Assembly (NCBI RefSeq): GCF_001428305.1
Contig: NZ_LMRZ01000004.1
Location: 229,314-293,313 of the forward strand
Direction of reading: 5' to 3'
Length of the DNA: 64,000 nucleotides
From: Janibacter sp. Soil728
Lineage (GTDB): Bacteria; Actinomycetota; Actinomycetes; Actinomycetales; Dermatophilaceae
This document shows positions 20,474 to 54,048 of the stretch, piece by piece. Each line of letters begins with the position of its first letter. The first letter of the stretch is position 1. A program made the translations under genes and the position numbers. The notes beneath the pieces were generated by a model. The model did no database searches and was not told the origin of the DNA. It saw only the letters and a list, made by a program, of their open reading frames with translations.

Positions 20474-21943
20474 GTGGTCGGGCCGGCGCGTCTGGTCCAC
20501 CCCGATGTCGGCGCAGGTCGTGCCGCGCTGCGTCCGCTCCAGGTCATGCTGGCGGTCACCGACCTGCTCGTGATCCTCTGGGCGACCTTCGGCGCGCAGG
20601 TCGTCCGGTTCGGCGTCGATGGGCACGGCAACGACGTCGCGGCGAGCACGGACAGCTTCACGCTGACCTACACGAGCTTCAGCGCGGGCCTGGCGCTCGT
20701 GTGGTGGCTGGCACTGCGTGTCCACGGCGCCTACGAGGCGCACATCCTCGGTCACGGAGCGTCGGAGTACCGGATCATCGCGGTGGCATCCCTGTGGGTC
20801 TTCGCCGCGGTCGCGATGCTCGCCTTCGCCCTGCAGGTGGCCGTGGCCCGCGGCTACATCCTCCTCGCACTGCCCTCGGGGATCATCGGGCTGTGGGTGG
20901 CCCGGCGCCTGTGGCGCAGGTGGCTCGGCGGTCGCCGGGCGGCCGGTGACCTCAGTCATGACGTCCTCGTCGTCGGCCACGAGACCTCGGCGCACCAGCT
21001 CGTGCAGGTCTTCGCCGCGGTGCCCGAGGCCGGCTACCGCGTCATCGGGGTCTGCGGCGCGAGCGAGGGACAGGCCATCGAGGGGATCCCGGTCCTCGGC
21101 CGTGAGCGGGACGCCGGTCGCGTGGCCATCGAGCTGGGCGTCGACGTCGTGGCCTGCGCCGACGGCCACGGGTTGGGGAGCGCCGGCCTGCGCAGACTCG
21201 GGTGGGCTCTCGAGGGCAGCGGCATCGACCTGGTCGTCTCCCCGGGGTTGACGGAGATTGCCGGCCCCCGCGTGCTGACGCGGCCCGTGGCAGGGCTCCC
21301 GCTGCTGCACGTGGAGGCGCCGAAGTTTTCCGGACCCAGGCTGGCGATGAAGTTCCTCCTCGACTGGGTTGGTGCTCTGGTACTCCTCATCGTCTTCTCT
21401 CCGCTGATGATCGTGGTCGCGGTCATGACCAAGCTGCACGACGCAGGCCCGGTCCTCTTCCGGCAGGAGCGAGTCGGTCTGGACGGCCAGACCTTCCTCA
21501 TGACGAAGTTCAGGTCGATGGACGTCGACGCCGAGGAATGCTTGGAGGACCTGCGCCGGGCTCGGGTGTCCGACCGGGACCGCGGCGTCCTGTTCAAGAT
21601 GGAGGACGACCCACGGGTGACGCCGATCGGCCGATTCATCCGTCGCTACTCGATCGACGAGCTGCCCCAGCTCTTCGACGTGCTCGCCGGCAAGATGAGC
21701 CTCGTGGGTCCTCGCCCGCCGCTGCCGTCCGAGGTGTCGCAGTACGAGGGCGACGTGGGCCGACGGCTGCTCGTGCGGCCAGGCATGACGGGGCTGTGGC
21801 AGATCAACGGGCGCAGCGACCTGTCGTGGGAGGAGTCGGTGCGCTTCGACCTGTACTACGTGGAGAACTGGTCGGTCGCCCAGGACATGATCATCCTGTG
21901 GCGCACCATCGCGGCGGTGCTGGCCAAGGACGGTGCCTACTGA
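20474..21943 (+). CDS. Initiating sugar-1-phosphate transferase (polyprenyl glycosylphosphotransferase, WbaP/CpsE type)
   Basis: Should transfer a sugar-1-phosphate from a UDP-sugar to undecaprenyl phosphate, starting repeat-unit assembly. The 489-residue protein has four N-terminal membrane spans (about 22-145), a CoA-binding-like cytoplasmic domain (160-285), a re-entrant hydrophobic helix (294-318) and the catalytic domain with FRQERVGLDG, KFRSMDVDAE, RRYSIDELPQL, MSLVGPRPPLPSE and RPGMTGLWQINGRSDLSW. The GTG start follows the previous stop by one base. Confidence 0.94.
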   Translation: MVGPARLVHPDVGAGRAALRPLQVMLAVTDLLVILWATFGAQVVRFGVDGHGNDVAASTDSFTLTYTSFSAGLALVWWLALRVHGAYEAHILGHGASEYRIIAVASLWVFAAVAMLAFALQVAVARGYILLALPSGIIGLWVARRLWRRWLGGRRAAGDLSHDVLVVGHETSAHQLVQVFAAVPEAGYRVIGVCGASEGQAIEGIPVLGRERDAGRVAIELGVDVVACADGHGLGSAGLRRLGWALEGSGIDLVVSPGLTEIAGPRVLTRPVAGLPLLHVEAPKFSGPRLAMKFLLDWVGALVLLIVFSPLMIVVAVMTKLHDAGPVLFRQERVGLDGQTFLMTKFRSMDVDAEECLEDLRRARVSDRDRGVLFKMEDDPRVTPIGRFIRRYSIDELPQLFDVLAGKMSLVGPRPPLPSEVSQYEGDVGRRLLVRPGMTGLWQINGRSDLSWEESVRFDLYYVENWSVAQDMIILWRTIAAVLAKDGAY

Positions 21944-22659
21944 TGGTGACGGACGTGCGACGGCGATGGAGTGCTCCCTTCCGTCCTCGCAACTACCGGG
22001 CCGCCTGGTCGACGTTGACGACCAGCAGACGGCCGGTCGATGCCTTGGACCGGTACGTCCGGGGGAGAGGTGACTACCCCTGGACGGTCACGCTCCGCAC
22101 ACCCGTCGGCCCGCTGGAGCTGCTCGTGCCCCACCCGCACGACGTGCGCACGGTCAACGAGGTCTTCCACCGCCACGACTACGGGGCCGGCCAGCCGGCC
22201 GTCGTCGTCGACATCGGCGGCAACATCGGCATCAGTGCCGCCTACTGGCTCAGCCGCTCGGCCACGAGCCGGGTGCACGTCTGGGAGCCGGTGCCCCACA
22301 ACCTCGAGACCCTGCGGCACAACGTCGCTCCCTTCGGGGACAGGTGCGTCGTGCACGAGGCGGCACTCGCGCCGGTGGCCGGACCGGCCACCTTCCTCAT
22401 CGATCCGGTGGGCCGCTACAGCGGGCTCGCGGAGTACCAGTCCACGACCGAGGGCCGGGTGGCCGTCGAGATCCGGTGCGAGGCCGTGGCCGATGCGCTC
22501 ACCGTGGTCCTCGAGCGGGAGGGACGTATCGACCTGGTCAAGGTCGACACCGAAGGGAGCGAGGACGCGATCGTCGCGGCGATCCCACCTCACCTGCGCG
22601 CGGCCATCGGGGAGATCGTCCACGAGTACCCCGGCGGGGTGCGCCGCATCCGCTCCTGA
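21943..22659 (+). CDS. FkbM-type SAM-dependent methyltransferase
   Basis: A 238-residue protein with the SAM loop VDIGGNIG (89-96), the acidic end of beta 2 (WEPVPHN), and the FkbM signature VKVDTEGSE (199-207). FkbM enzymes O-methylate sugars and polyketides; here a polysaccharide residue is the likely target. The ATG overlaps the transferase stop by one base (TGATG). Confidence 0.88.
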   Translation: MVTDVRRRWSAPFRPRNYRAAWSTLTTSRRPVDALDRYVRGRGDYPWTVTLRTPVGPLELLVPHPHDVRTVNEVFHRHDYGAGQPAVVVDIGGNIGISAAYWLSRSATSRVHVWEPVPHNLETLRHNVAPFGDRCVVHEAALAPVAGPATFLIDPVGRYSGLAEYQSTTEGRVAVEIRCEAVADALTVVLEREGRIDLVKVDTEGSEDAIVAAIPPHLRAAIGEIVHEYPGGVRRIRS

Positions 22660-22668
22660 GCCGATGCG

Positions 22669-22950
22669 TCAGCGGTACTCGAGCAGACGCTGCCCGACGA
22701 GGTCGTCGACGAATGCCTCGATGTCTGCGCGCACCGTCGCGACGGGGTGACCGGTCGCCTCGGCGACCGATGCCACCAGAGGTGTCGCGCCGTCAGCGAC
22801 GCTCAGCCAGATGGTCGCGGCGACGCCGGCCAGCATGACCACCGGGCCGCCCGGCAGGCGGGCGGCCATCACCCGCGGGAGGCCCAGGACGTCGGTGTCC
22901 GTGGTCCAGCCGACATCGGTGGGGATGACCGGTCGGGAGGACGTCGTCAT
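22669..22950 (-). CDS. PqqD-like peptide-binding (RRE) protein
   Basis: A 93-residue protein matching the PqqD fold in length and layout: VMAARLPGGPVVMLAGVAATIWLSVADGA, then a winged-helix part with VAEATGHPVATVRADIEAFVDDLVGQRLL. PqqD-like domains bind peptide substrates in RiPP pathways, but homologs also occur in polysaccharide loci next to nucleotidyltransferase-like proteins. ATG 22950 overlaps the stop of the 1023-residue fusion in an ATGA, so the two are coupled. No precursor peptide gene is evident nearby. Confidence 0.8.
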   Translation of the reverse strand: MTTSSRPVIPTDVGWTTDTDVLGLPRVMAARLPGGPVVMLAGVAATIWLSVADGATPLVASVAEATGHPVATVRADIEAFVDDLVGQRLLEYR

Positions 22951-25900
22951 CTGTCTCCTCCTCGGCCGAGGATCTCCAGGGCGCCCCGACGGATCCGGTC
23001 GACGAAGGCGAGCAGCGTCTCTGCCCGGGTGGGTCGATGGCCCAGCTGTGTGGCCAGGTGGTCGGTGTTGACCATGAAGGCACGCAGGGTGAGCACCAGC
23101 CGTGACCGCCGGTCCGGCGCGACGGCGATCCGAGCTCGCCACTCGTCGATCCGGCCATCTCGGGCCACCGCGGACCAGAGCGCCTGCTCCGGCGACGGGG
23201 GAAGGGAGTCGAGCATCCCCAGACCCGCTGCGAAGCCCACCTCTGCGTGCATCTGGGCCACCCAGCCGCGGACCGCTTCTCGGGTGGGCTCGTCGGCGAG
23301 GTGCCAGACGTGCCGGACATCCCGGGCCGCGCGACCGATGGACGAGGTGCGACCGGAGTGCAGGACGACGATGCCGATCTGCGCGATCAGCGCGGGCGTC
23401 GCGCACGGGACCGCAGCGATGTCCTTGTGGGTCCTCGCCGACCACAGCCGCTCGAAGGCCTCATCAGGTGGAAGTCCGATCCCCGGGAAGTGTCGGTGGA
23501 TGTCGAGATAGCCCCAGAGGTCGTGCCACAGGGTCATCGCGTGCTCGAAGGGGGAGCTGGTCGAGAAGCGACCTGTGGCGCGATAGCCCACGGCGGTGCA
23601 GGCGGCGACCAGCTGCTCGATGTGGTCCGGCCGGACGAGGACATCAGCGTCGGTGGGATGGCGGTCAGGATGGATGAGCGAGTCGTCCAGTGCCACTCCC
23701 TTGATGTGGAGCAGGTCCACGCCAGCGCGTTCGGCGACCTGCTGGACGGCCGCGTGCCCGAAGCGGACGCGCGCATCGAGCGGCACCTCGGCCCCGCTGA
23801 AGACCGCTCGGTCCTCCGGGTCGGCCGGGTCCGGGCCCACCTCCACCCGCTGCAGGACCTCCCGCATCTCCTGCACCCGGTCGGCCCACGTCGGGACAGA
23901 GGTGTCGACACCGGTGGGGTAGCGGTCGGCGGCCGGAAGGGCGGTGGTGACGGCGGCAGGGAAGTCGCGGCTCGCGACGACACGGAGGCGGTCGTCGGCG
24001 GCCTCCCGGAAGCCGGCGACCGGCGTGCTGACGACCGGTCGACCGACGGCGCGGTACTCGTAGAGCTTGATCGGGTCGAGGCTGTCGGTGAAGTCGTCGA
24101 CCACGTGCGGCACGACCAGCACGTCTGCGTGCTGCAGGTAGGCGGGGACGAGCCGGCGGTCCTTGGGCCCGAGGCGCACGATACCGGCCTCGTCCAGTCG
24201 CTCGCGCTCGCGGTCGGTCAGGGCATCCGGACCGACCAGGACGAGGGTGCCGCGATCGCCGAGCGACTCGGCCGTCTGCTCGCACAGCCGGATGTCCAGG
24301 CGGTCGGAGTGGAGGGTGCCGATGTACACGGCGACGGGCCCGGCAGGCAGGTCTGATGGCCGAGCGGTCGGGCGAGCTGTGGCCGCCGCGTCGACGGCGT
24401 TGTGGATCAGCGTGACGGGCCGGTGCCGTGACTTCGTCGTGACGAGTGACGGTGAGCAGACCACCACCTCGGCGGCCCGCTCCATGAGGGTGGCCTCGTG
24501 GGTGGCCAGCCGGGTCAGCGTGACGGCATCGCGGTCGGCCTCGAGCCAGTCGTCCGTGATGTCGTACAGAGTGGGCCATCCTGTGCGCTCGAGGACGAGA
24601 GCGCCATGGGGATCATTGGCCCAGAGCATCGGGTGCGTGAAGCCCAGTCGCGTCGCGGCCTGCTCGACCTGCGCGGCCCATCGCTCGTCCTGGTCCGGGT
24701 CCAGCCGGCGGGGGAGAGCCTTGGTCGGCTCCAGCAGCCAGAGGTTGTCGATACCGACACCGCTGAGGTGCGGTCCCCGGCGCAGCCCTCGCCCGACCCG
24801 GGGGGCGCTGCCGGAGCGCAGTCGGTGGACGGGGTCCTGCGCAGGCTCGACGACGAGGACCCGCAACGAGGGTTCCGCCAGCAGCAGACCGGCCAGCAGG
24901 TGCTGGTTTCGTCGCCACACCCGGTCCCACGGCTCCAGCGAGACGACGACGAGCTCGCGTCCCGTGCCCATGGTCGGTCGCGGCGAGCTGGCCGCGATGA
25001 CGTGGCGGTAGAGCGCCTCGGTGGCGGTGGCCTGGGCTGCCACGGAGAAGTCCCTGCGCTGTCGCTCCTGCAGCTCCCGGCCGTAGCGGTCGCGACGCTC
25101 GGGGTCCGCGGCCAGCGACGCCATGAGGTGCCCGGCCTCCTGCGCGTCACCGGGGGCGAAGAGCACAGGGTCCCGGGCGCCTCCGACGCTCTCCAGGTGG
25201 CCACCCGCCGCGGCTGCCACCACGGGGACCGCGGCGGCCATGGCCTCCACGACGGCCAGCCCCATCCCTTCGATCGTGCACGGGGCCAGGAAGAGTGACG
25301 CCTGCGCCATGAGGTGGTCGACGTCGCTGCGATGACCGAGGAAGTCGACGCTGCCGCGCACCTGGAGCCGCTCGGCCAGACCCTCCAGCGCTGCGCGCTG
25401 CGACCCGTCGCCCGCGATGGACAGTCTCCAGCCCTGCCTGTCCAGCCCCGATGCGGCGAACGCGGCGACGGCGACATCCGTCGACTTCTCTGCCTCGAGC
25501 CGCTGGGCGACGAGTACGGTGCGCGAGCGCGACGACGGGTCGCTCCCGTCAGGTCGGTCCGGGATGCCGGGCAGGATGACGGTCGCATCGACGTCGATCG
25601 ACGTGGCGATGTGCTCGCTGACGGCGATCTCCGCGCTCAGGCGGGACTGCAGCCGTTCGGCCACGGAGCGGGTGCCGGGTGTTGCTCCCCTGCGGGCGGC
25701 GAAGTGTCGGGTGCTGACGACCGGAGTCCGCACGAGTGCCGGACTGATCAGCGCGGCGACGTCGGCCGTCGTCATGTGGGTCGCGACGACGTCTGCACGA
25801 CGACCGGCGGGGCCGGTCAGGCCCCGTAGCGCGGCCCACATGTCGGGGGCGGGAGACAGCTCCACCCCCGGGCGGTCGATCGCCTCCCTCATCTGCCCCA

Positions 25901-26018
25901 GGTCGCCGCCGAGCACCGTGACCTGGTGGCCCTGGTCGTGCTGGGCCGAGGCGAGGACCGCGACGTGACGCTCGACTCCGGCGAAGTTGGTCGTGCAGAC
26001 CACGTGGGTGATCCTCAC
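22947..26018 (-). CDS. Triple fusion: GT4 glycosyltransferase - glycosyltransferase - NTP_transf_5-like nucleotidyltransferase
   Basis: A 1023-residue protein with three units. Residues 1-343 are a GT4 enzyme (GGDGSQRAAL near 203, TIEGMGLAVVEAMAAAVPVV at 248-267). Residues 353-730 are a second GT-B enzyme (WPTLYDITDDW, YIGTLHSDRLD at 565-575, DPIKLYEYRAVGRPVV at 648-663). Residues 750-1023 resemble the uncharacterised nucleotidyltransferase family PF14907, with HIKGVALDDS at 771-780 and the acidic TDADVLV at 789-795. GTG 26018 overlaps the polymerase stop in a GTGA, which fixes the start; the longer frame upstream to 27086 is shadow code. It probably adds two successive sugars; the third unit's role is unknown. 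Confidence 0.85.
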   Translation of the reverse strand: MRITHVVCTTNFAGVERHVAVLASAQHDQGHQVTVLGGDLGQMREAIDRPGVELSPAPDMWAALRGLTGPAGRRADVVATHMTTADVAALISPALVRTPVVSTRHFAARRGATPGTRSVAERLQSRLSAEIAVSEHIATSIDVDATVILPGIPDRPDGSDPSSRSRTVLVAQRLEAEKSTDVAVAAFAASGLDRQGWRLSIAGDGSQRAALEGLAERLQVRGSVDFLGHRSDVDHLMAQASLFLAPCTIEGMGLAVVEAMAAAVPVVAAAAGGHLESVGGARDPVLFAPGDAQEAGHLMASLAADPERRDRYGRELQERQRRDFSVAAQATATEALYRHVIAASSPRPTMGTGRELVVVSLEPWDRVWRRNQHLLAGLLLAEPSLRVLVVEPAQDPVHRLRSGSAPRVGRGLRRGPHLSGVGIDNLWLLEPTKALPRRLDPDQDERWAAQVEQAATRLGFTHPMLWANDPHGALVLERTGWPTLYDITDDWLEADRDAVTLTRLATHEATLMERAAEVVVCSPSLVTTKSRHRPVTLIHNAVDAAATARPTARPSDLPAGPVAVYIGTLHSDRLDIRLCEQTAESLGDRGTLVLVGPDALTDRERERLDEAGIVRLGPKDRRLVPAYLQHADVLVVPHVVDDFTDSLDPIKLYEYRAVGRPVVSTPVAGFREAADDRLRVVASRDFPAAVTTALPAADRYPTGVDTSVPTWADRVQEMREVLQRVEVGPDPADPEDRAVFSGAEVPLDARVRFGHAAVQQVAERAGVDLLHIKGVALDDSLIHPDRHPTDADVLVRPDHIEQLVAACTAVGYRATGRFSTSSPFEHAMTLWHDLWGYLDIHRHFPGIGLPPDEAFERLWSARTHKDIAAVPCATPALIAQIGIVVLHSGRTSSIGRAARDVRHVWHLADEPTREAVRGWVAQMHAEVGFAAGLGMLDSLPPSPEQALWSAVARDGRIDEWRARIAVAPDRRSRLVLTLRAFMVNTDHLATQLGHRPTRAETLLAFVDRIRRGALEILGRGGDR

Positions 26019-27352
26019 GGCCGGGCACCTGCGATGGCCGCTGGGTGCTCGGGAACCTGCAGCGACAGGTCGTCCAGTGCCCCCTGCTCGGCATCGTCGT
26101 GCTCGCGCAACGCAAGGGCTCCCAGGCAGATGCCGGCGATGACGAAGGGGATGGAGGTCTGGGCAGCGACCCAGAAGAGGTCGAGCTGACCCTGGACGAA
26201 GCGCGAGAGGACGGCCAGGACGGCGAGCGTCCCGTAGGCAGGGGGCAGCTTCCACAGGATGACGACGCTGCCGACCATCAGGACGAGGAACCCGACCAGC
26301 CCGAGGATGCCTGCCGAGGTGAGGACCTCGAGCTCGGCGTTGGGCGGTTGGAAGCCACCGGGGAAACGGTCGGTGTACCACCACCGCAGCCCGACTCCGA
26401 CGATCGGCGACGTCTGCCAGATCTCCATGGCGTCCTGGAACCACGTGAATCGCTGGAAGACGGAGTTGTGCACGTTGCCGCTGGACAGCTGGTCGCGGAC
26501 CAGGGTCAGGACGAGGACGAGGGCGGGGACGATGCCGAGCAGGATGATCTTGGAACGGCGACGGTCGGTGCGGTTGCGCAGGATGAGCACGAGCAGGACC
26601 AGCCCCAGGGCGACCACCGCCTGACGGGACTGGGTGAAGCCGATGCCGATGGCCAACCACCAGAAGGCGGTGACGCCGACCCGACGACTGAGGTTGGCCC
26701 AGGCCGGCCGGACGTAGGCGATCAGGGCCGTGATGCCCATGACCGTTCCGAGGAAGTTCTTGTGCATGCCCGGCTGGAGGTACACCGGTCGGAAGTCGCC
26801 CTGCAACGCATGCAGCACGCCGACCACGATGGTCCACGTGGCGAGGACGAGCGCCGCAGCGAGCATGAGCTTCAGGGCGAGGCTGCCCGCGCCCGATCGC
26901 CCGACGCTCCATCCCAGCAGGAGTCCTCCGGCGACGAGCAGGCCGGAGTGCGCCCAGTCCAGGGTGTTGGCCAGGTAGGGGTTGGCCACCACGGTGAAGA
27001 GGGTCGCGCTCTGGTAGATGGCGACGAGCCACAGGAGGTTGCGTAACGGAGAGCTGATCGGGTGCCGCACGAAGAGGAGGGCGCACAGCGTGCCGATGGC
27101 GAGGGCGACGTCCGACACCGAGATGTCCGTGCCGCCGTAGACGGCTCGGGCCGCGACGTAGAGCAGGGGGAGCGTGAGCAGCGGGACGACGACGGGTTGG
27201 ACGGCAGAGATGCCCAGCAGGAGCACGCCCAGCGCGGCCACGAGTGCCACGGCTGGGTGCTGGGGTGCGAACCAGCCCAGGCCGGCTGCGGCGCCGCCGA
27301 CGAGCACGAGGGCGCTGGCGGCGGTGACGCGGTCACGGACCGTGGAGCTCAT
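26015..27352 (-). CDS. Wzy-like polymerase / O-antigen ligase family membrane protein
   Basis: A 445-residue protein with 11-12 membrane spans and one large outer loop (about 270-330, with FQRFTWFQDAMEIWQTSPIVGVGLRWW). MHKNFLGTVMG and TQSRQAVVALG are typical of the Wzy_C/O-antigen ligase family. Expected to polymerise lipid-linked repeat units on the outer face of the membrane, working with the Wzx-like flippase (34359) and the Wzz/kinase (29428). It overlaps the GT fusion by 4 nt. The gap to the upstream gene is 16 nt. Confidence 0.85.
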   Translation of the reverse strand: MSSTVRDRVTAASALVLVGGAAAGLGWFAPQHPAVALVAALGVLLLGISAVQPVVVPLLTLPLLYVAARAVYGGTDISVSDVALAIGTLCALLFVRHPISSPLRNLLWLVAIYQSATLFTVVANPYLANTLDWAHSGLLVAGGLLLGWSVGRSGAGSLALKLMLAAALVLATWTIVVGVLHALQGDFRPVYLQPGMHKNFLGTVMGITALIAYVRPAWANLSRRVGVTAFWWLAIGIGFTQSRQAVVALGLVLLVLILRNRTDRRRSKIILLGIVPALVLVLTLVRDQLSSGNVHNSVFQRFTWFQDAMEIWQTSPIVGVGLRWWYTDRFPGGFQPPNAELEVLTSAGILGLVGFLVLMVGSVVILWKLPPAYGTLAVLAVLSRFVQGQLDLFWVAAQTSIPFVIAGICLGALALREHDDAEQGALDDLSLQVPEHPAAIAGARP

Positions 27353-27368: not shown

Positions 27369-29330
27369 TCATCGGGGCAGGTCCTCGAGGTCGGACTCCA
27401 CCCGGAGCGGACCGCGCACGTACCGACGGACACGGTCGCGGGCTGCGTGCCCGCGCTCGTCCCGCAGGAGCAGCGCTCGCGCAGCTGATCCGACGATCAC
27501 TGCTGCCCGCGTGACCTGCCAGCCGAGCGGCCCGAAGTGCTTGCGGTGGTAGCGCTCCTGCGAGGCGTGGAAGTGCGCATCGCGCCGGCCCGGGTCAGAG
27601 CTCGTGGCTGCCCCGAGGTGGCGGGCGGTGACCTCGGGCACCACGGCATGGCGCCACCCGAGGTCGTGGGCGCGACGGGCCCAGTCGGTCTCCTCGGCGT
27701 AGAGGAAGAAGGACTCGTCCAGGCCCCCGACCTGCTCGAGGGCCTCGGCGCGAAGGAGGAGCACGGATCCGATGACATAGCCGCGGTCACGCTGCAGTGA
27801 CCCGAGGCCGATCGCCTCCAGGACAGCACCCCCCGGTGTCGGGAAGGGCCAGGCGACCCGCCCCGGACGGTCGTCGCCGTCGAGCTGCTGCGGTCCCACG
27901 CTCGCCAGATCAGGTCGGGCACGCAGGGCCGCATGCAGCAGGTGGACCCCGGCCTCGTCGATGACGGCGTCCGGGTTGAGCAGCAGCACGTCGTTACCGG
28001 GCGTGAGCCGTTCGGCCAGTCCGTGGTTGACCCCCGCGGCGAAGCCACCATTGCGGCCCGGGTCCAGGTACCGCACCCCGAGCTCGGTGCACACCTCGCG
28101 CACGAGCGGGTCGGACGAGTTGTCGACGACGGTGACCGGGAAGTTGCGGACGGGCTCGAGGCTCGCTCGCAGGAGGTCTGGTCGGTGGTAGGCCACGACG
28201 ATGATCTCGGGGTCCGCCGCGGGTGTGGCCGTGCCTGTGCCACTGATGTGCTCGTACAGCGCCACGTAGTCCCCACCGATCGTGTCCCAGGTGAACGCGT
28301 CTGCGCGCGCCAGCCCCTCACGTCGCATTGTGGCCCAGACCTCAGGGTCTGCTCCCACGTGGTCCAGTGCACTCGCCAGGGCGGCCGGATCGCCCGGGGG
28401 GACGAGCAGCCCGGCACCGCGCACCACGTCGGGCAGCGCACCACTGTCACTGGCGACCACCGGTGTGCCACAGGCCATCGCCTCGACCGCCACGCGGCCG
28501 AACTGCTCGATCCACGTCGGTGTCGTGAGGGACGGGACGGCGAGCACGTCGAGACCCCGGTAGAACTCCGGCAGGTCCGTCTTGTCGACCGGTCCGACGA
28601 GGTCGACCCGGCCCTCGAGGTCCGATCGCGTGATTCTGGTGCGCACCTCGCTTTCCTGCGAGCCTGCGCCGGCGACGGACAGCCTCAGACGAGGGCTCAT
28701 TGCGATGGCCTCGAGGAGGACGTCGACCCCCTTGTGCGGCTCGAGGCGACCGACGTAGCCGACCCGGACGAGGTCGTGCGGGTCGAGAGCGTGCTCGGCC
28801 GCGGGGGAGAAGTGCTGGGTGTCGACGCCCAGCCCGATGGTGACGGCACGCCCGGTCAGTCCCTTGCCGGTGACGACGCGGCCGGCCTCGTCGTTGCACA
28901 CGCTGACGGCGCTCGCGTGACGCAGCGCCCACCTCTCCATCCAGCGGAAGGGAGGCGGGTAGCGCTTGTCGATGTTCTGCGCGGAGTACAGGGCGAAGGG
29001 GGTGCGCGAGCGGCGCAGTGCCCGGAGGGCCAGCACCTCGAAGGTCGCCAGCGCGAAGGGCTCCTCGTGCAGGTCCAGCACGTCCCAGTCCTCACCGAGG
29101 AGGTGCCACAGCGGCCGGGGGTCGTAGACGAAGAGCGCCGGGTGGCTGCCGAGGGTGCGCACCCCGCGCACGTCCTCGCCCTCGCGCGGACGAAGGGGGA
29201 CGGTGCGGCCCCCTTCGTCCCACTGCACGGCGGTCACCGAGACGACCTCGTGACCGGCCCGGCGGGCGACTCGCTCGCGTGCTCGCCAGTCGTCCACCAC
29301 ACCGCTGTGGGAGATCCGCAGGATCCGCAC
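27369..29330 (-). CDS. GT4-GT2 fusion glycosyltransferase
   Basis: A 653-residue two-enzyme protein. Residues 1-365 are GT4 (GYVGRLEPHKGVDVLLEA at 191-208, then IEQFGRVAVEAMACGTPVVA around 274-293). Residues 374-653 are a rhamnosyltransferase-like GT2 (VVDNSSD at 401, NPDAVI at 452, FFLYAEETDWARR at 541-553). GTG 29330 has AGGAG 8 nt upstream and homology begins there. First gene of the minus-strand block GT4-GT2, polymerase, triple fusion, PqqD-like. The two activities probably add consecutive sugars. Confidence 0.9.
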   Translation of the reverse strand: MRILRISHSGVVDDWRARERVARRAGHEVVSVTAVQWDEGGRTVPLRPREGEDVRGVRTLGSHPALFVYDPRPLWHLLGEDWDVLDLHEEPFALATFEVLALRALRRSRTPFALYSAQNIDKRYPPPFRWMERWALRHASAVSVCNDEAGRVVTGKGLTGRAVTIGLGVDTQHFSPAAEHALDPHDLVRVGYVGRLEPHKGVDVLLEAIAMSPRLRLSVAGAGSQESEVRTRITRSDLEGRVDLVGPVDKTDLPEFYRGLDVLAVPSLTTPTWIEQFGRVAVEAMACGTPVVASDSGALPDVVRGAGLLVPPGDPAALASALDHVGADPEVWATMRREGLARADAFTWDTIGGDYVALYEHISGTGTATPAADPEIIVVAYHRPDLLRASLEPVRNFPVTVVDNSSDPLVREVCTELGVRYLDPGRNGGFAAGVNHGLAERLTPGNDVLLLNPDAVIDEAGVHLLHAALRARPDLASVGPQQLDGDDRPGRVAWPFPTPGGAVLEAIGLGSLQRDRGYVIGSVLLLRAEALEQVGGLDESFFLYAEETDWARRAHDLGWRHAVVPEVTARHLGAATSSDPGRRDAHFHASQERYHRKHFGPLGWQVTRAAVIVGSAARALLLRDERGHAARDRVRRYVRGPLRVESDLEDLPR

Positions 29331-29361
29331 CTTATAGACTCCTCGCGAGTGGGTGGGGGGC

Positions 29362-29377
29362 GTCACACTGACCTTAC
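29362..29377 (-). promoter_or_regulatory. Phased direct repeat, site D, in the divergent GT/Wzz promoter region
   Basis: On the minus strand the sequence reads GTAAG-N6-GTGAC, the same 11-bp phasing as sites A and B. It lies in the 97-bp gap between two divergent polysaccharide genes and could control both. Confidence 0.45.
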
Positions 29378-29427
29378 CGTCGGCGCATCGGGCGCTGGAC
29401 GGTTCGCGCACTTGGGGAGGAGCAAGA

Positions 29428-30831
29428 GTGCAGTTCAGCGAGTTCTTGAATGTCCTGAGGGCGCGGTGGAAGCTCATCGCTGCGTGCGTCGTGCTGGCGG
29501 TCCTCGCGGCCACCGCCCTGACCCTGCTCACGACCCCGGTGTACGAGGCCAGGGCGCGCATCTACCTCAGTGCGGAGGGGCGCGGTGGGGATGCCGCGCG
29601 GACCACGGGCAATGTCTTCGTCCTCACCAGCGACGACCTCGACACCTATGTCTCCATCCTCAACACTCCTGCCGTGCTCGAGCCCTTGCGCAAGGAGCTC
29701 GGCCTCGAGCCGGGGCATCCGATCGACGTGCGTGCCGACGTCACCGGCTCGACCTCGATCCTCAACGTCACTGCCCGCTCGTCCGACCCGAAGGAAGCCG
29801 CAGAGGTCGCCAACGAGGTGGGCCCTCAGCTCGGCGCGGTGGCGGGGGAGTTCTCCACGCTGCTGAAGTCGTCCGGGCAGAAGGTCGTCTCGACGCCGAT
29901 CCAGCCGGCGTCGGCGCCGTCGCGACCGGTGTCTCCGGACCCGGTACGCAACATCGGCCTCGGTCTGCTCGCCGGTCTCGTGCTGGGGATCGGCATCGCC
30001 TTCATCAGGCACTCGCTGGACACCAAGGTGCGTGGTGAGGACGACATCCGCGCGCACTCGGATGCGCCGATGCTGGCCGCGTTGCCCCTCGACCGGTCCT
30101 CGTCCAAGGGACTCGTGAGCGTCGAGGACGACCCGCACGGTCGGCATGCCGAGGCGATCCGCCGGCTGCGGACCAACCTGATGTTCGTCGACGTCACGAC
30201 GGGTCGGCACTCCTTCGTCGTCACCTCGGCGATGCCGGGCGAAGGCAAGACGACGACGGCGGCCAACCTCGCGCTGGCGATGGCCGACTCCGGGCGCCGC
30301 ACGCTGCTCGTCGATGCCGACCTGCGCAACCCGTCCGTCGCCCGCACCCTTGGCATGGAAGGCAGCGTGGGCCTCACGAGCGTCCTGCTCGGCGAGTCCG
30401 AGGTCCACGACGTCATCCAGCCGTGGGGCTCCCACGGCATGGATGTCCTGCCGGCAGGGCCCGTCCCGCCCAACCCGAGCGAGCTGCTCGGCTCGGCGCC
30501 GATGGAGGCGCTGCTGCGCTCCCTGGTGGGTGAGTACGACTTCGTCCTGGTCGACTCCCCGCCCGTGGTGCCGGTCATCGACGCGGTCGTCATCGAGCGG
30601 CTCACCGGCGGCCTGCTCATGGTCGTGGGCGTCGACCGGACCCGCAAGAAGGACCTGGCTGCCGCACTGCGCCAGCTCGACACCGTCGGCGCCAAGGTCT
30701 CGGGGTTTGCCCGCAACTTCGTCTCCGGCAAGGCGGAGGGTGCCTACCGGTACGGCTACCACGCCTACGAGCAGGAGGTCGAGCGCGAGACCCGGCGAGC
30801 CCGCAGGACCAAGACCCGCAGCCGCGCCTGA
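29428..30831 (+). CDS. Wzz chain-length regulator fused to BY-type tyrosine kinase
   Basis: A 467-residue Wzz/BY-kinase. Residues 1-195 form the membrane part (spans about 15-36 and 175-194 with an outer loop). The kinase has Walker A (SAMPGEGKTT, 267-276), Walker A' (LLVDADLRNP, 293-302) and Walker B (FVLVDSPPV, 372-380). A C-terminal tyrosine cluster (Tyr440, 442, 444, 447) is the expected autophosphorylation site. GTG 29428 has GGAGG 7 nt upstream. It should control polymer length and export together with the Wzy-like protein. Confidence 0.93.
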   Translation: MQFSEFLNVLRARWKLIAACVVLAVLAATALTLLTTPVYEARARIYLSAEGRGGDAARTTGNVFVLTSDDLDTYVSILNTPAVLEPLRKELGLEPGHPIDVRADVTGSTSILNVTARSSDPKEAAEVANEVGPQLGAVAGEFSTLLKSSGQKVVSTPIQPASAPSRPVSPDPVRNIGLGLLAGLVLGIGIAFIRHSLDTKVRGEDDIRAHSDAPMLAALPLDRSSSKGLVSVEDDPHGRHAEAIRRLRTNLMFVDVTTGRHSFVVTSAMPGEGKTTTAANLALAMADSGRRTLLVDADLRNPSVARTLGMEGSVGLTSVLLGESEVHDVIQPWGSHGMDVLPAGPVPPNPSELLGSAPMEALLRSLVGEYDFVLVDSPPVVPVIDAVVIERLTGGLLMVVGVDRTRKKDLAAALRQLDTVGAKVSGFARNFVSGKAEGAYRYGYHAYEQEVERETRRARRTKTRSRA

Positions 30832-30911: not shown

Positions 30912-31595
30912 TCAGGGTGCCGCGGTGGTGACGGGGGAGGGCTCGAGGGACGCCGGGGGAGCCTGAGTGGCCGGTGCCGAGGACGAGGTGGGCGCGGCAG
31001 CCGTGCTCGTCGTGGAGCTGGTCTGGGCACTCGAGCGAGCGGCAGTCGTGCTCGACGTCGTGGCGGACGGGTCCTTGCAGCAGTCGGGAGGAGTGCCAGG
31101 CACGTTGACCGTGGCGGAGACGAAGGTCCCGTCGTGGTCGTGGTCGTCGTCCGGGTCCGGGGTGTGGCCCCAGGTGAAGGAGATGGTGAAGGTGAAGACC
31201 TGGTCTGCGCTGTTGGTCGACGTGGTGTTCATCCGCACGGTCCGCGTGGTGTTCGGCGGGATCGCGATGTTCCCCGTGTTGAGGGTGCCGCCGTCGTCGT
31301 AGCCCACATACGTCAGGGTCAGCGTCGTGCCACTCACCACGATGGTCGGCGGGACGTAGAGGTACACCGTCTTGTTGGAGGTGTTGGTGATCGTCGCCGT
31401 GAAGACGTACCCCTTGACGAAGGGGTTGCAGCTGTTGCCCGGCGCCTTGCACGCGGCGCCGAAGGAGATGGTGGGCTTGGTGCCGCTCGAGGCGTACGCG
31501 GGAGCAGCGACGCCGCCGAGGATGACCGGAGTCGTCCAGGCCGCACCCTTGGCCACCGTCCTGCGTGAGATCGGCCTGCTGGTTGCCTCGGTCAT
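30912..31595 (-). CDS. Tat-exported surface protein of unknown function
   Basis: A 227-residue protein. The N-terminus SRRTVAKGAAWTTPVILGG (6-28) is a twin-arginine-type signal, with cleavage near APAYASS. Residues 37-175 look like a beta-sandwich (alternating ITNTSNKTVYLYVP, IPPNTTRTVRMNTTS) with Cys pairs and an Asp/His-rich stretch DPDDDHDHDG that could bind metal. The last 50 residues are Ser/Thr/Ala/Pro-rich, like the wall protein at 11084. ATG 31595 has GAGGGG upstream. Its place beside the kinase suggests a matrix or surface role; no homolog is recognised. Confidence 0.75.
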   Translation of the reverse strand: MTEATSRPISRRTVAKGAAWTTPVILGGVAAPAYASSGTKPTISFGAACKAPGNSCNPFVKGYVFTATITNTSNKTVYLYVPPTIVVSGTTLTLTYVGYDDGGTLNTGNIAIPPNTTRTVRMNTTSTNSADQVFTFTISFTWGHTPDPDDDHDHDGTFVSATVNVPGTPPDCCKDPSATTSSTTAARSSAQTSSTTSTAAAPTSSSAPATQAPPASLEPSPVTTAAP

Positions 31596-33387: not shown

Positions 33388-34362
33388 GTGACTGAGCCGA
33401 CCGAACTTGAGCAGACGCAGGCGCCACGACGGGTGATGGTGACCGGCGGGGCCGGGTTCATCGGGTCGCACATCGCGGAGCGACTCCTCCAGCAGGGACA
33501 CGAGGTGCTCGTGGTCGACAACTTCTACTCGAGCACGCGCCGCAACCTGACGCACCTCTTCGAGCACCCCAACTTCGAGCTCCTGCGCCACGACGTGACC
33601 TTCCCGCTCTACGTCGAGGTCGACGAGATCTACCATCTGGCCTGCCCCGCGAGCCCGATCTTCTACCAGCGCGACCCGGTCCAGACGACGAAGACGAGCG
33701 TCCTCGGCTCGATCAACATGCTCGGCCTGGCCAAGCGCACCAAGGCCAAGATCCTGCTGTCCTCGACCTCTGAGGTCTACGGCGACCCGCAGGTGCACCC
33801 CCAGACCGAGGACTACTGGGGCAATGTCAACCCCATCGGCATCCGCTCCTGCTACGACGAGGGCAAGCGCTGCGCGGAGACGCTCTTCTTCGACTACCGC
33901 CGTCAGCACGACATGCCGGTCAAGGTCGCCCGCATCTTCAACACCTACGGCCCGCGGATGCAGCCCAACGACGGTCGGGTCGTCTCCAACTTCATCGTCC
34001 AGGCGCTCGCAGGCGAGCCGCTGACGATGTACGGCGACGGCAGCCAGACCCGCTCCTTCTGCTTCGTCGACGACATGGTCGACGGCCTGATGTCGCTCAT
34101 GGCGACACCGCACGAGGTGACGGGTCCGATCAACATCGGCAACCCGGTCGAGTTCACGATGCTCGAGCTCGCCGAGCTCGTGCTCGAGCTGACCGGCAGC
34201 AGCTCCGAGCTCGTCCACCTGCCGTTGCCCCAGGACGACCCGACCCGCCGCCGGCCCGACATCACGCAAGCCACCGAGGTCCTCGGGTGGGAGCCTCGGG
34301 CGCAGCTGCGGGCCGGGCTGGAGCGCACGATCGACTACTTCGCAGCGCTGCAGCGCCCGTGA
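33388..34362 (+). CDS. UDP-glucuronate decarboxylase (UDP-xylose synthase)
   Basis: A 324-residue short-chain dehydrogenase-type enzyme: NAD loop GGAGFIG (20-26), [12 protein letters not shown] (83-94), and catalytic Tyr156 and Lys160 in SCYDEGKR. These are hallmarks of UXS, which makes UDP-xylose from UDP-glucuronate. Homologs forming other sugars usually lack the CPASP segment. It overlaps the flippase in a GTGA. A UDP-glucose dehydrogenase to supply the substrate is not in the window. Confidence 0.9.
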
Positions 34363-35912
34363 CTGAGGGCCCCATCGCCGCGGAACCTCCGCGTCGCGGC
34401 ATTGGTGAGGGGCTCATCAGCGGGACCGCATGGACGGCGATCCATGTCGTGGTGTCGGTGCCGATCGCCTTCCTCGTCAATGTCGTCGTTGCCCGGAGCC
34501 TAGGCGTCGTCGACTACGGTCGACTGGCCATCCTCACGATGGTGCTGGCGTTGGCGACGGCAGCAGCCTCCCTCGGCGTGGGTGCCGCATTGATGCAGTT
34601 CGTCACCAAGGCCTCCGAAGCTGCTCGTCACCGGGACGTGGCGCGACTCGTGTCCGGGGCGCAGGGGTACAACCTGCTCGTGGCGGCGCCCGTGGTGTCG
34701 CTCGTCGTCCTTCTCGTCGTCGACGTGCCGTGGCCCTTCCTCCTCCTGGCAGTGGTTTTCGGAATCTTCGGGCCCGCGCTGCTCCAGGTGGGGCCCATCC
34801 TCCTGGCCACCGAGCATCGGTCCGACAGGGCGGCTCAGATCGCCTTGGTCAGCAATCTGGTGATCCAGGGGACTGTCGTCATGACAGTCCTGCTCCACCC
34901 GACCTCCAGCGCGGTGTGGATCGCTCGCGTCGTCGCCACCGGTGCTCTGATGGTGCTGCCGGTGCTGGCGCTGTCACCGAGGCTGCGTCGCGCCGCCACC
35001 CGCCCGGGGTCGCCGTGGTCCTTGCCCGCTGCCTTCTGGGCCTTCGCCGTGCCCACCGGCCTCGCGGCCCTCGTCAGCCAGCTCGTCACCGACAGGGTGC
35101 AGGTCTTCTTCCTCGAATGGCTCGAGGACTCGGTCGCGGTGGGACTCTTCGCTCTGGCCTTCGGCCTCGCCGCCCAGATCCTCGCGCCGGTGCAGGCAGC
35201 TGTCGGTCCGCTGCTCCCTGCCTTCGCAGCCTTGCGTGAGCGAGGGAACGAACAGGCGCGAGTCGGCCTGCTGAGGGTGACGCGTGTGTCAGCGGTGGCC
35301 ACCGGAGGGGTGCTCTCCTTGGGACTGCCACCCCTGGCTGCCCTCATCCCGTGGATCTATGGCCAGCCCTTCGAGCCCAGCGCCGACTACTTCGTGGTGA
35401 TGGCGTGCGCGGCGGGGTTCGTCGTCGTGGGCTCCGCCTCGTATGCCTCGCTCATGGCCCGCCTCCGGGGCGGGACCTACCTCCGGGTGAACCTCTTGGC
35501 CCTGGTGGTGATGGTCAGCGTGGCCCTGACCACGATCCCGCTCCTGGGCGCGTGGGGAGCAGTGGCCTCGATGGTCACCGGCACGCTGGCCCGGGCACTT
35601 CTGATGGTGGCCGTCGAGATGCGAGCACACGTCGTGCCCCGCGCCGAGATGACACGGGCCTTCGCTCCGGTCGTGCTCGCGACAGGTGTCGTGCTCCTCG
35701 TGTGGTTCGGGGTGGTGGAGAGGCTGGGGGCTGACCCGGTCGTCGCAGCGGTCACAGGTGGCGTGATGGGAGCGGCCGGGTACATGCTCTTGGTCGCGCT
35801 GACTGGATCAGGGCTGACGCCCGAGGACCGTGACACCCTCCTGGGAGCTGTCCCGTCACGAGCTCGACGCCCGGCATCGATCGTGCTGCCCCTCGTCTCA
35901 CGAAGGCGGTAG
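34359..35912 (+). CDS. Wzx-like lipid-linked oligosaccharide flippase (MOP superfamily)
   Basis: A 517-residue protein with 12-14 membrane spans and the polysaccharide-exporter layout: [18 protein letters not shown] at the start, [17 protein letters not shown] after the second span, and [20 protein letters not shown] in the middle. It should flip the lipid-linked repeat unit to the outer face before polymerisation. GTG 34359 overlaps the UXS stop in a GTGA. Confidence 0.9.
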
Positions 35913-42097: not shown

Positions 42098-42129
42098 GCG
42101 CTCAGTCGAAATGTGTGTGTGGGGGGAAG

Positions 42130-44397
42130 TTGATCAGACCGGTGCAGGTGGCGATCCTCGACCACACGGCACAGCTCGGGGGAGTCGAGCTGGCGCTCGT
42201 GCGTCAGATGGACGCGCTCGCCGAGCGCGATGACGTGCGGGCACGCGTCCTGCTCTTCGCAGACGGTCCGCTCGTCGGGCGACTCCGCGAGCGGGGGCAC
42301 GAGGTCGAGGTGCTCCCCATCGACGAGGGGCTCGGCACGACGACCCGTCACGAGGCAGCTGGCCTGCGGACCGCGCTGACCTCCGCAGTGGGGGCGGCCC
42401 CCTTCGTGCGGCGGTTGGCTCGTCGCCTGCGCGAGATGGACGTGGACGTCGTCCACACGACGACACTCAAGGCCGACCTGCTCGGCGTGTCTGCGGCTCG
42501 CCTCGCGCGACTACCGCTCGTCTGGCACGTCCGCGACCGCATCGCGCCGGACTACCTCCCTTCGCCGCTCGTGCACCTCATGCGCTCCGTCGCACGGAGC
42601 GCGCCGCAGCGGGTCGTCGCCAACTCCCGCGCCACCGCCGCGACCCTCCCGGGAGCCAGAGGGCTGACCGTCGCGTATCCCGGCCTCGCCCCGGAGCAGA
42701 TCGCGTCGTCGCCCCGCCCCGAGCCGGACCATCGCATCGTCGGGATCATCGGGCGCATCTCGCCGACCAAGGGGCAGCTCGAGTTCGTCCGCGCGGCCGG
42801 CCGGATCGCCGAGCGGCACCCCGACGTGACCTTCCGCATCATCGGCTCGCCGATGTTCGGCCAGGAGGAGCACGAGCGAGAGATTCGTCGCGAGATCGAG
42901 CAGCTCGGACTGACCGACCGCGTGGAGCTACCCGGCTTCAGCGCCGACCCGAGCGCCGAGCTCGACCGGATGACCCTCGCCGTCCACGCCTCGCCCGTGC
43001 CGGAGCCCTACGGCCAGGTCGTCGCCGAGGCAATGGCTCGCGGGGTCCCGGTCATCGCGACCGACGCCGGTGGAGTGCCCGAGATCGTCCTGGGCGGCGC
43101 CGAGCCCGTGGGCTGGCTCGTCCCGCCGCGGGACGTCGACGCGCTCGCGACGGCCATGGATGCCGCTCTGTCCGATCCTGACGAGGCCGGGCGAAGGGGG
43201 CGGGCCGGCTGGGAGCGGGCTCGCACCGCACTGGGCATCGGGCCGAGCATGGACACGCTCACCGGGGTCTGGCGGGAGGTGGCCGGCCTGACCCGGCCAC
43301 GCGTGGCCATCGCGCACGACTACCTGACCCAGCGTGGGGGAGCGGAGCGGGTGGTCCTGGAGATGGCCCGGGCCTTCCCCGGTGCCACGATCCACACCAC
43401 GCTCTACGACCCCGAGGGCACCTTCCCCGAGTTCCGCGACCACGACATCCGGGTCAGCCCGCTCAACCGCGTCGGTCCGCTGCGTCGCAACCACCGGGCG
43501 GCGCTGCCCTTCCTCCCCTTCGCCGCCGGTCGCCTGCGCATCGACGCGGACCTCGTCATCGCGAGCAGCAGCGGGTGGGCGCACGGGTTCCCGACGACCG
43601 GGCGCAAGCTCGTCTACTGCCATGCCCCGGCTCGCTGGCTCTACCAGAGCGAGCGCTACCTGGGCAGCGACCCGAGGCGCTCCCCGGTCGGGCTGGCGTT
43701 GCTCGCGCTGCGCGCACCCCTTCGCGCCTGGGATCAACGCGCGGCCCGGACCGGCGATGCCTACCTCGCCAACAGCAATGTTGTGCGCGAGCGCATCGGG
43801 GAGGCCTACGGCATCGACGCCGAGGTGCTGCCGCCTCCCTTCGCCGTCGACACCACGGGGGAGCGCGAGCCCGTCCCCGAGGCTTCTGACTGGCCGGAGG
43901 GGTACCACCTCGTCGTCTCCCGGTTGATGCCGTACAAGAATGTCGACGTCGTCATCGACGCGTTCCGTGAACTGCCGGAGCGACTGCTCGTCATCGGGGC
44001 CGGCCCGCTCCTCGACCGGCTGCGAGCCAGCGCCCCCGACAACGTGCGCATCGCCACCGAACTGAGCGATGCCCAGATGCGGTGGGCCTACGAGCACGCC
44101 ACCGCACTGGTCGCCGCGAGTCACGAGGACTTCGGGCTGACACCTCTCGAGGCCGGTGCCTTCGGCAGGCCGACGATCGCTCTGCGTGCCGGCGGCTACC
44201 TCGACACCATCAGCGAAGGGGTCAACGGCGTCTTCTTCGACGAGCCGACAGCCGAGGCGATCCGTGACGCCGTCATTGCCATGCGGCAGACCACGTGGGA
44301 CTCTCATTCCCTCCGCGACCACGTGGACGCTTTCTCCCCCGAGTGCTTCGCTGATCGGTTGCAGGCCGTCGCAGCGCGTCTCTCAGTGATGCGCTAG
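42130..44397 (+). CDS. GT4-GT4 fusion glycosyltransferase
   Basis: Two complete GT-B enzymes in about 755 residues. The first half (to about 385) starts VAILDHTAQLGGVELAL and has GRISPTKGQLEFV and PEPYGQVVAEAMARGVPVIA. The second half starts RVAIAHDYLTQRGGAERVV and carries YCHAPARWLYQSERYLG and EDFGLTPLEAGAFGRPTIA, like WbaZ-type mannosyltransferases. The start is uncertain: TTG 42130 follows GGGGGGAAG, GTG 42142 gives the usual family N-terminus, and GTG 42115 is also open. Probably adds consecutive sugars. Confidence 0.87.
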   Translation: MIRPVQVAILDHTAQLGGVELALVRQMDALAERDDVRARVLLFADGPLVGRLRERGHEVEVLPIDEGLGTTTRHEAAGLRTALTSAVGAAPFVRRLARRLREMDVDVVHTTTLKADLLGVSAARLARLPLVWHVRDRIAPDYLPSPLVHLMRSVARSAPQRVVANSRATAATLPGARGLTVAYPGLAPEQIASSPRPEPDHRIVGIIGRISPTKGQLEFVRAAGRIAERHPDVTFRIIGSPMFGQEEHEREIRREIEQLGLTDRVELPGFSADPSAELDRMTLAVHASPVPEPYGQVVAEAMARGVPVIATDAGGVPEIVLGGAEPVGWLVPPRDVDALATAMDAALSDPDEAGRRGRAGWERARTALGIGPSMDTLTGVWREVAGLTRPRVAIAHDYLTQRGGAERVVLEMARAFPGATIHTTLYDPEGTFPEFRDHDIRVSPLNRVGPLRRNHRAALPFLPFAAGRLRIDADLVIASSSGWAHGFPTTGRKLVYCHAPARWLYQSERYLGSDPRRSPVGLALLALRAPLRAWDQRAARTGDAYLANSNVVRERIGEAYGIDAEVLPPPFAVDTTGEREPVPEASDWPEGYHLVVSRLMPYKNVDVVIDAFRELPERLLVIGAGPLLDRLRASAPDNVRIATELSDAQMRWAYEHATALVAASHEDFGLTPLEAGAFGRPTIALRAGGYLDTISEGVNGVFFDEPTAEAIRDAVIAMRQTTWDSHSLRDHVDAFSPECFADRLQAVAARLSVMR

Positions 44398-52432: not shown

Positions 52433-52494
52433 CCCGTCCTCGGGCGCTACCCTTCGCCTGCGCACCCATGTCGCTGATGCACCACGGAGGCACC

Positions 52495-54044
<1,550 letters not shown>

Positions 54045-54048
<4 letters not shown>

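Follow-up and report, generated by a model that had tools for sequence, protein, structure and literature searches.

We analyzed a 64,000-nucleotide window of the Janibacter sp. Soil728 genome (contig NZ_LMRZ01000004.1), in which a gene fusing two glycosyltransferases (GTs) to a nucleotidyltransferase is followed by a gene for a PqqD-like protein, a discrete RiPP recognition element (RRE; RiPP, ribosomally synthesized and post-translationally modified peptide). We propose that the fusion and the PqqD protein serve, at this locus, as the specific arm of a protein-modification system guided by RREs, and that an exported protein encoded in the same window is its likely local substrate; we assign this reading a probability of about 0.6. 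As shown by comparison across related genomes, an HprK-like kinase, the RRE, and the nucleotidyltransferase appear to form one module, and one class of exported proteins, here called leader proteins, appears to be tied to that module. Support for the link to the substrate is good, whereas the chemistry is what we infer.

The fusion gene starts with GTG and runs through 1023 codons without a break. Its product matched Glyco_trans_1_4 twice in Pfam (best stretch, residues 166-304; E 7.2e-38 for the protein), and the second GT, residues 463-669, matched TuaH in NCBIfam. The nucleotidyltransferase domain carries the DxD...D catalytic acids and the nucleotidyltransferase fold, and K773 G774, D790, D792, D839, and H841 were invariant across 36 aligned sequences of this domain, the window's included. 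The PqqD-like protein scored 30.0 bits with PF05402 (Pfam cut-off 23.4), and its open reading frame (ORF) overlaps that of the fusion by 4 nt. Thus, both the single 1023-residue GT-GT-nucleotidyltransferase frame and the overlapping RRE gene, which a preliminary description had read from the letters, were borne out. The Wzy_C-type gene upstream (26015-27352) likewise shares 4 nt with the fusion gene, and because both junctions are built in this way, the three genes appear to be coupled.

The full-length fusion was present in six of 16 Janibacter genomes, that of the window included. The five others align over 1019-1023 residues at 57-68% identity and contain no internal stops. The gene is found on the J. 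indicus contig NZ_FWXN01000004.1, and Marihabitans asiaticum (G090, L071/L156) encodes a 1396-residue form with an extra GT fused N-terminally. In all seven cases (six Janibacter and Marihabitans), the PqqD gene follows with a 4-nt overlap. The preliminary description had called for a survey of the fusion and the gene pair, both of which recur in these genomes, and had named in advance a sequencing error hiding two or three genes as its refutation; the recurrence of a stop-free, full-length fusion with the overlapping PqqD gene rules out such a frame error. Relatives of the nucleotidyltransferase domain were detected in 96 of 186 genomes of the family. In the family loci examined, this domain is mostly a stand-alone gene product of ~290 residues, and relatives of GT1, GT2, the Wzy-like protein, and the neighboring GT4-GT2 protein are separate genes in many of the same clusters. 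In an order-wide sample of 396 genomes, 28 gave matches, and GT1 and GT2 relatives adjoin in the majority of these. Since its parts occur as separate neighboring genes in relatives, the fusion looks like a product of joined neighbors. Two genomes from other families of the order, G359 (L136) and G315 (L137), each showed a single match spanning GT1 and GT2 without the nucleotidyltransferase part, which may represent an intermediate or an independent fusion.

Next, the association between the nucleotidyltransferase, the RRE, and the kinase was analyzed. Of 56 named loci, 46 have a PqqD domain at most 102 bp downstream of the nucleotidyltransferase domain, as counted with a profile built from the same loci themselves, and the two are naturally fused in L091 and L098. 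A kinase was found within the examined flanks (up to 6 kb per side) in 15 of these 56 loci, and fused GTs in two. At the genome level, the kinase accompanied the nucleotidyltransferase in 94 of 96 genomes, compared with 15 of the 90 genomes lacking the latter. A PqqD profile of 19 sequences matched the lasso RREs TbiB1 (5v1u; E 5.6e-7), TfuB1 (6jx3), and PbaB1 (9x90), and also the LPP RRE LppB (9x8z). The 12 leader-contact positions of PbaB1, taken from the LPP paper (PMC13381572) and assigned by hand from the alignment register, correspond to V38, L40, V43, I47, V62, T66, H68, T72, D76, F80, L84, and L89 of the window protein; eight are hydrophobic and four are not, which is consistent with a leader-binding cleft. 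F80 retains the pocket-dividing Phe of PbaB1, and D76 takes the place of LppB D70, judged by its spacing to that Phe.

These data bear on an alternative in which the RRE and kinase only phosphorylate leader proteins, the fusion independently tailors the exopolysaccharide repeat (for example by phosphosugar transfer, as in FKRP), and the role of PqqD is that of an allosteric or scaffolding subunit. We consider this unlikely, given the position of PqqD behind, or fused to, the nucleotidyltransferase domain, the resemblance of its profile above all to leader-binding lasso RREs, the near-constant presence of the kinase, and the fact that some leader genes adjoin nucleotidyltransferase-PqqD genes.

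The preliminary description had seen no HprK-like kinase, which is true of the immediate operon, but one is encoded on another contig of the same genome and ends in a PqqD-like tail. Its fold is of the PEPCK type, which HprK shares; HPr kinase/phosphorylase itself was not among the best 50 matches listed in the fold comparisons. The HprK-related kinase A model (HprK_rel_A, TIGR04352) was the best named NCBIfam match, yet the kinase scored 25.5 bits with it, far below the curated cut-off of 200. TIGR04352 kinases are found alongside PqqD-like proteins in the vicinity of polysaccharide loci. The PqqD-like tail was detected with a PqqD profile of the same locus-derived kind in this genome and in eight Janibacter relatives (19.8-31.8 bits; hhalign probability 96); it was weaker elsewhere, at 15.7 bits in Marihabitans (L071) and a weak 8.3 bits in L072. 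By eye, the kinase neighbors in L127 are housekeeping genes.

A scan of the loci for exported proteins then revealed a class with the N terminus [S]RR[T/S]xxKGAAWxxP. These leaders contain the RR motif, a hydrophobic stretch, and mostly an AxA site, so that export by the twin-arginine translocation (Tat) pathway is predicted from sequence. A protein of this class is encoded in the polysaccharide locus of all six fused Janibacter genomes. In the window, it lies in the same locus, 4.9 kb from the fusion gene; its Tat-like signal contains WxxPx[V/I/L], and a Ser stands 17 residues past the W (W+17). We consider this protein the likely local substrate of the window genome. Therefore, the earlier remark that no precursor peptide is seen holds for the immediate operon but not for the locus, where a plausible substrate with a WxxP leader is present. 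The functional link, which had been drawn from gene coupling, rests on more than that because a kinase is encoded in the genome, nucleotidyltransferase and PqqD are naturally fused in two loci, and this leader protein is available; the suggestion of an as yet undescribed action of the pair on a carrier was, in our judgment, right. Pfam named no family for the window leader protein (best E 0.048), and NCBIfam named none for the 56 of 73 leader proteins compared (best E 0.015), six of which touched TIGR02811, a formate dehydrogenase TAT target, with E values no better than 0.024.

The exact DNA pattern of the motif matched 139 places in 76 of the 186 family genomes, and the reversed pattern matched once. 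A relaxed pattern (at least 103 of 186 genomes) was noisy, its reversed control matching too, and was excluded from the statistics; genome G002, which lacks the kinase, has one relaxed-pattern match that is unlike a leader. Beyond the window, the same Janibacter genome encodes leader-type proteins at G000:C1:810701, G000:C6:197636, and G000:C7:118915, none of which was found within 50 kb of nucleotidyltransferase or kinase genes. By eye, C-K-x-P-G follows the leader in proteins of L243, L246, L253, and L256 near kinase or nucleotidyltransferase genes, and these proteins perhaps share a secreted domain that has no Pfam name.

A second alternative holds that the system really acts on a hidden small RiPP precursor of lasso or LPP type, while leader proteins merely travel with polysaccharide loci. 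According to PMC13381572, an HprK-like kinase, a nucleotidyltransferase, and a discrete RRE do typify paeninodin-like and LPP clusters in capsule loci, and tiny ORFs were not searched exhaustively in this analysis. However, a Pfam scan at E 0.001 of 50 further window frames (20 plus 30, leaving out a few short and alternative frames) matched neither a lasso macrolactam synthetase nor the B2 leader protease. Moreover, the RRE-binding motif is carried by the exported proteins themselves, and kinase and leader proteins co-occur even when they are far apart, as in the window genome. We thus regard a hidden precursor as improbable. The same 50 frames yielded no radical SAM family, in agreement with the preliminary description, and a PQQ biosynthesis or radical-SAM pathway was ruled out on this ground.

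We next analyzed residue conservation in 73 distinct leaders, which come from the loci examined and not from all 139 places; a first logo had 74 rows, from which L267 (AAWRRP), a chance frame, was removed. As W, P at +3, RR, and GAA were set by the search, they are uninformative, and the informative features are positions +5, +12, +17, and -4 and the constant place of the Ser. V, I, or L occupied W+5 in 71 leaders, Pro W+12 in 68, and Ser W+17 in 71, compared with a Ser share of 7.5% among the residues that follow. The exceptions at W+17 were Thr in L072 and a residue that is neither Ser nor Thr in L225. The latter is an 81-residue ORF with a leader and a short remainder, and it may be a decaying gene. 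The AxA site is displaced in eight leaders (L073 and L224 being borderline), and seven of the eight retain Ser at W+17. Because of this retention, the Ser seems to be positioned relative to the W and not to the cleavage site.

The distribution of the motif was then compared with that of the kinase. The kinase was present in 75 of 76 family genomes with the motif, against 34 of 110 without it. Fisher values take genomes as independent, so motifs were shuffled within genera as a fairer test, and none of 20000 shuffles reached the observed overlap. In ten genera that are mixed for the kinase, the motif occurred in 43 of 61 kinase-positive and in one of 36 kinase-negative genomes; in Janibacter, the association was 13/13 against 0/3. 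A class-wide, even sample of 394 genomes, which shares at least eight genomes with the family set, contained ten with the motif. Eight of these encode the kinase, compared with 20 of 384 motif-negative genomes (or 11 of 384 under a stricter limit of E 1e-40), and outside the family the figure was five of seven. Furthermore, 27 of the 139 leader genes have a kinase or nucleotidyltransferase gene no more than 2.5 kb away, where 0.45 were expected; this expectation is calculated for genomes of 3.7 Mb with sites treated as independent, and weak kinase fragments are among the places typed. In Marihabitans, genes for the Wzy-like protein, the GT-GT-GT-nucleotidyltransferase fusion, PqqD, a leader protein (10051-10815 of L071), and the kinase follow one another on one strand. 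A third alternative, that the W-x-x-P...S signature is a lineage-specific Tat signal whose kinase link reflects shared ancestry, draws on the RR and mostly AxA features of the leaders and on the relatedness of the genomes, but the ten mixed genera, the recurrence beyond the family, the excess of adjacent genes, and the Ser kept at W+17 despite shifted AxA sites leave it little probability.

Several observations weigh against the proposed system. The window domain matched NTP_transf_5 (PF14907), the family named in the preliminary description, at residues 763-887 with E 7.6e-5, but its 22.8 bits fall under the gathering cut-off of 31.2; that cut-off was passed by a stand-alone relative in L106 (38.9 bits) and by a second copy in the window genome (58.0 bits). 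This second gene (G000:C7 52237-52845; L038:9481-10565) lies beside apparent sulfate-assimilation genes and directly behind a 79-residue ORF that is PqqD-like by eye only, without a Pfam match; L039 and L040 contain the same pair, accompanied in L039 by two leader proteins of the KGVAW variant within 3.5 kb. The kinase of the window genome lies outside the operon, and Pfam at E 0.5 sees no PqqD in the kinase tail. In addition, for 112 of the 139 leader genes, any kinase or nucleotidyltransferase gene is more than 2.5 kb away. The exact motif is missing in 34 of 109 kinase-positive genomes, partly because the DNA pattern is strict, as KGVAW variants are found near nucleotidyltransferase genes: ~1 kb away in L092 and L093, both with a kinase, and 3.4 kb away in L039. 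Conversely, the motif occurs without a detected kinase in G767 and G877 of the class sample and in G050, a genome that is 83% complete; G050, the sole exception in the family set, encodes tandem leader proteins at G050:C299:32150 and 33141. In a control of only 13 other Tat-like proteins, the matching place held Ser in four and Ser or Thr in seven, and three of the four Ser-bearing proteins are KGVAW leaders of the same class. Four genomes with both motif and kinase (G009, G011, G014, and G122) have no nucleotidyltransferase relative, indicating that sugar addition would not be universal; they fit a system centered on phosphorylation, to which the sugar is added locally. Finally, a review does not settle whether the nucleotidyltransferase PsmN of the pseudomycoidin pathway adds the sugar itself, and since a host GT in E. 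coli could not be excluded there, the analogy is weakened.

In the system that we favor, PqqD domains would bind the WxxP stretch as a leader in the cytoplasm, and the kinase would phosphorylate the Ser at W+17. The nucleotidyltransferase domain may then use a nucleotide donor to place a sugar or a sugar phosphate on the phosphoserine, and the two fused GT4 domains could extend the glycan in place. After export of the modified protein and removal of its signal, a phospho-glycan would remain near the N terminus and might end up beside, or joined to, the exopolysaccharide of the same locus. More tentatively, this would amount to a protein-primed glycan pathway, in which the RRE reads the export-signal leader, the kinase phosphorylates the Ser, the fused enzyme (nucleotidyltransferase plus two to three GTs) primes and extends a glycan on that phosphoserine, and proteins are exported with the exopolysaccharide of the locus already attached to them or themselves grafted into it; we hold this fuller version to be possible but doubtful. 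The pathways in which RREs are known are RiPP pathways, whose products are small peptides. Should the proposed system be real, the RRE recognition code would also label full-size exported proteins via their signal peptides, so that actinomycetes would have a new route for phosphorylating and glycosylating proteins, and sets of HprK-like kinase, nucleotidyltransferase, and RRE in polysaccharide loci would be offered a concrete function. In the open-access literature searched, which excludes most subscription papers and so cannot show absence from print, we recognized no account of this substrate class.

The surroundings of the fusion are an exopolysaccharide locus (Table 1), which also encodes PAP2, an epimerase, further GTs, and two acyltransferases. 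The GT4-GT2 protein has a relative in the cluster of all six fused Janibacter loci. Two further double-GT fusions (window 42115-44397 and 27369-29561) lie in the locus, indicating that GT gene fusion is common there. Among the 50 scanned frames, neither a signal-peptidase family nor an ABC exporter was matched; the sole ABC_tran protein (52468-54048) sits with Bmp and BPD_transp_2 import genes.

Table 1. Features of the exopolysaccharide locus in the window, with the basis of each assignment.
Feature	Position	Strand	Basis or remark
Polyprenyl-phosphate sugar phosphotransferase (Bac_transf)	20474..21943	+	PF02397, E 1.4e-66
FkbM-type methyltransferase	21943..22659	+	PF05050 inside a longer frame; start taken from the frame
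PqqD-like discrete RRE protein, 93 aa	22669..22950	-	PF05402 above cut-off
GT4 - GT4 (TuaH-like) - NTP_transf_5-like nucleotidyltransferase fusion, 1023 aa	22947..26018	-	Pfam and NCBIfam, open frame
Nucleotidyltransferase-fold domain, fusion residues 739-1023	22947..23804	-	Invariant residues in alignment
Wzy_C O-antigen ligase/polymerase-like protein	26015..27352	-	PF04932; upstream of the fusion, 4-nt overlap
GT4-GT2 fusion	27369..29561	-	Pfam; same strand as the GT-GT-nucleotidyltransferase fusion
Wzz/tyrosine-kinase-like chain-length regulator, start uncertain	29488..30831	+	PF02706 and AAA_31 in frame 29353-30831
Exported protein, 227 aa, leader MTEATSRPISRRTVAKGAAWTTPVILGGVAAPAYASS, proposed substrate	30912..31595	-	WxxPxI from W20; Ser at W+17 is S37
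Wzx-like polysaccharide flippase, start uncertain	34287..35912	+	PF01943/PF13440

Among known systems, FKRP shares a nucleotidyltransferase fold in a glycan-building enzyme, with a structure solved with CMP and CDP-ribitol, but only 124 residues align at an rmsd of 3.9 and no shared sequence family was shown. Also comparable are the phosphoglycosylated lasso peptides pseudomycoidin and paeninodin. According to the reviews PMC9266682 and PMC8498205, the PsmK kinase phosphorylates a Ser of pseudomycoidin and the PsmN nucleotidyltransferase is needed for hexoses on the phosphoserine, a division of labor like that proposed here; in contrast, their Ser is the C-terminal core residue and the product is a small peptide. 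Lasso membership was ruled out, as the macrolactam synthetase and B2 protease were unmatched in the scanned frames. Lasso and LPP RREs bind [Y/W]xxPx[LVIFA] according to PMC13381572, and the RRE-bound motif is given as W/Y/LxxP/L/I in PMC12710340; the leaders described here carry such a motif. The LPP RiPPs (LppA/K/B/S/D/N), as portrayed in PMC13381572, share with the Janibacter system a discrete RRE, an HprK-like kinase, a nucleotidyltransferase, and the polysaccharide-locus setting, as well as precursors with a conserved N terminus, a variable C terminus, and a [Y/W]xxPx[V/L] motif. The phosphorylated LPP residue is S3, 18 residues from the motif Tyr (Y-16), so that in both systems the Ser lies 17-18 residues past the aromatic residue. 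The window genome combines, as LPP systems do, a discrete RRE, an HprK-like kinase, and a nucleotidyltransferase, with the kinase outside the cluster. However, the LPP leader YxxPxVLxHQxIxFETxxS was not matched, as the leaders here are Tat-like signals with W for Y and no HQxIxFET stretch. LPPs have a signal-peptidase-like leader peptidase, and their clusters include a SipW-like signal peptidase (SpI) and an MsbA-like transporter, neither of which was found among the 50 window frames; here, the export signal itself would serve as the leader. The proposed substrates are full-size exported proteins that are often distant from the kinase, the nucleotidyltransferase is fused to GTs in Janibacter, and the hosts are actinomycetes, whereas LPPs are described as restricted to Bacillota. 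Since the leader consensus differs, a signal peptidase and ABC exporter are missing from the scanned frames, and LPPs are limited to Bacillota, LPP membership was ruled out. In its proposed mode of action, the Janibacter system resembles LPP and pseudomycoidin maturation without belonging to the LPPs.

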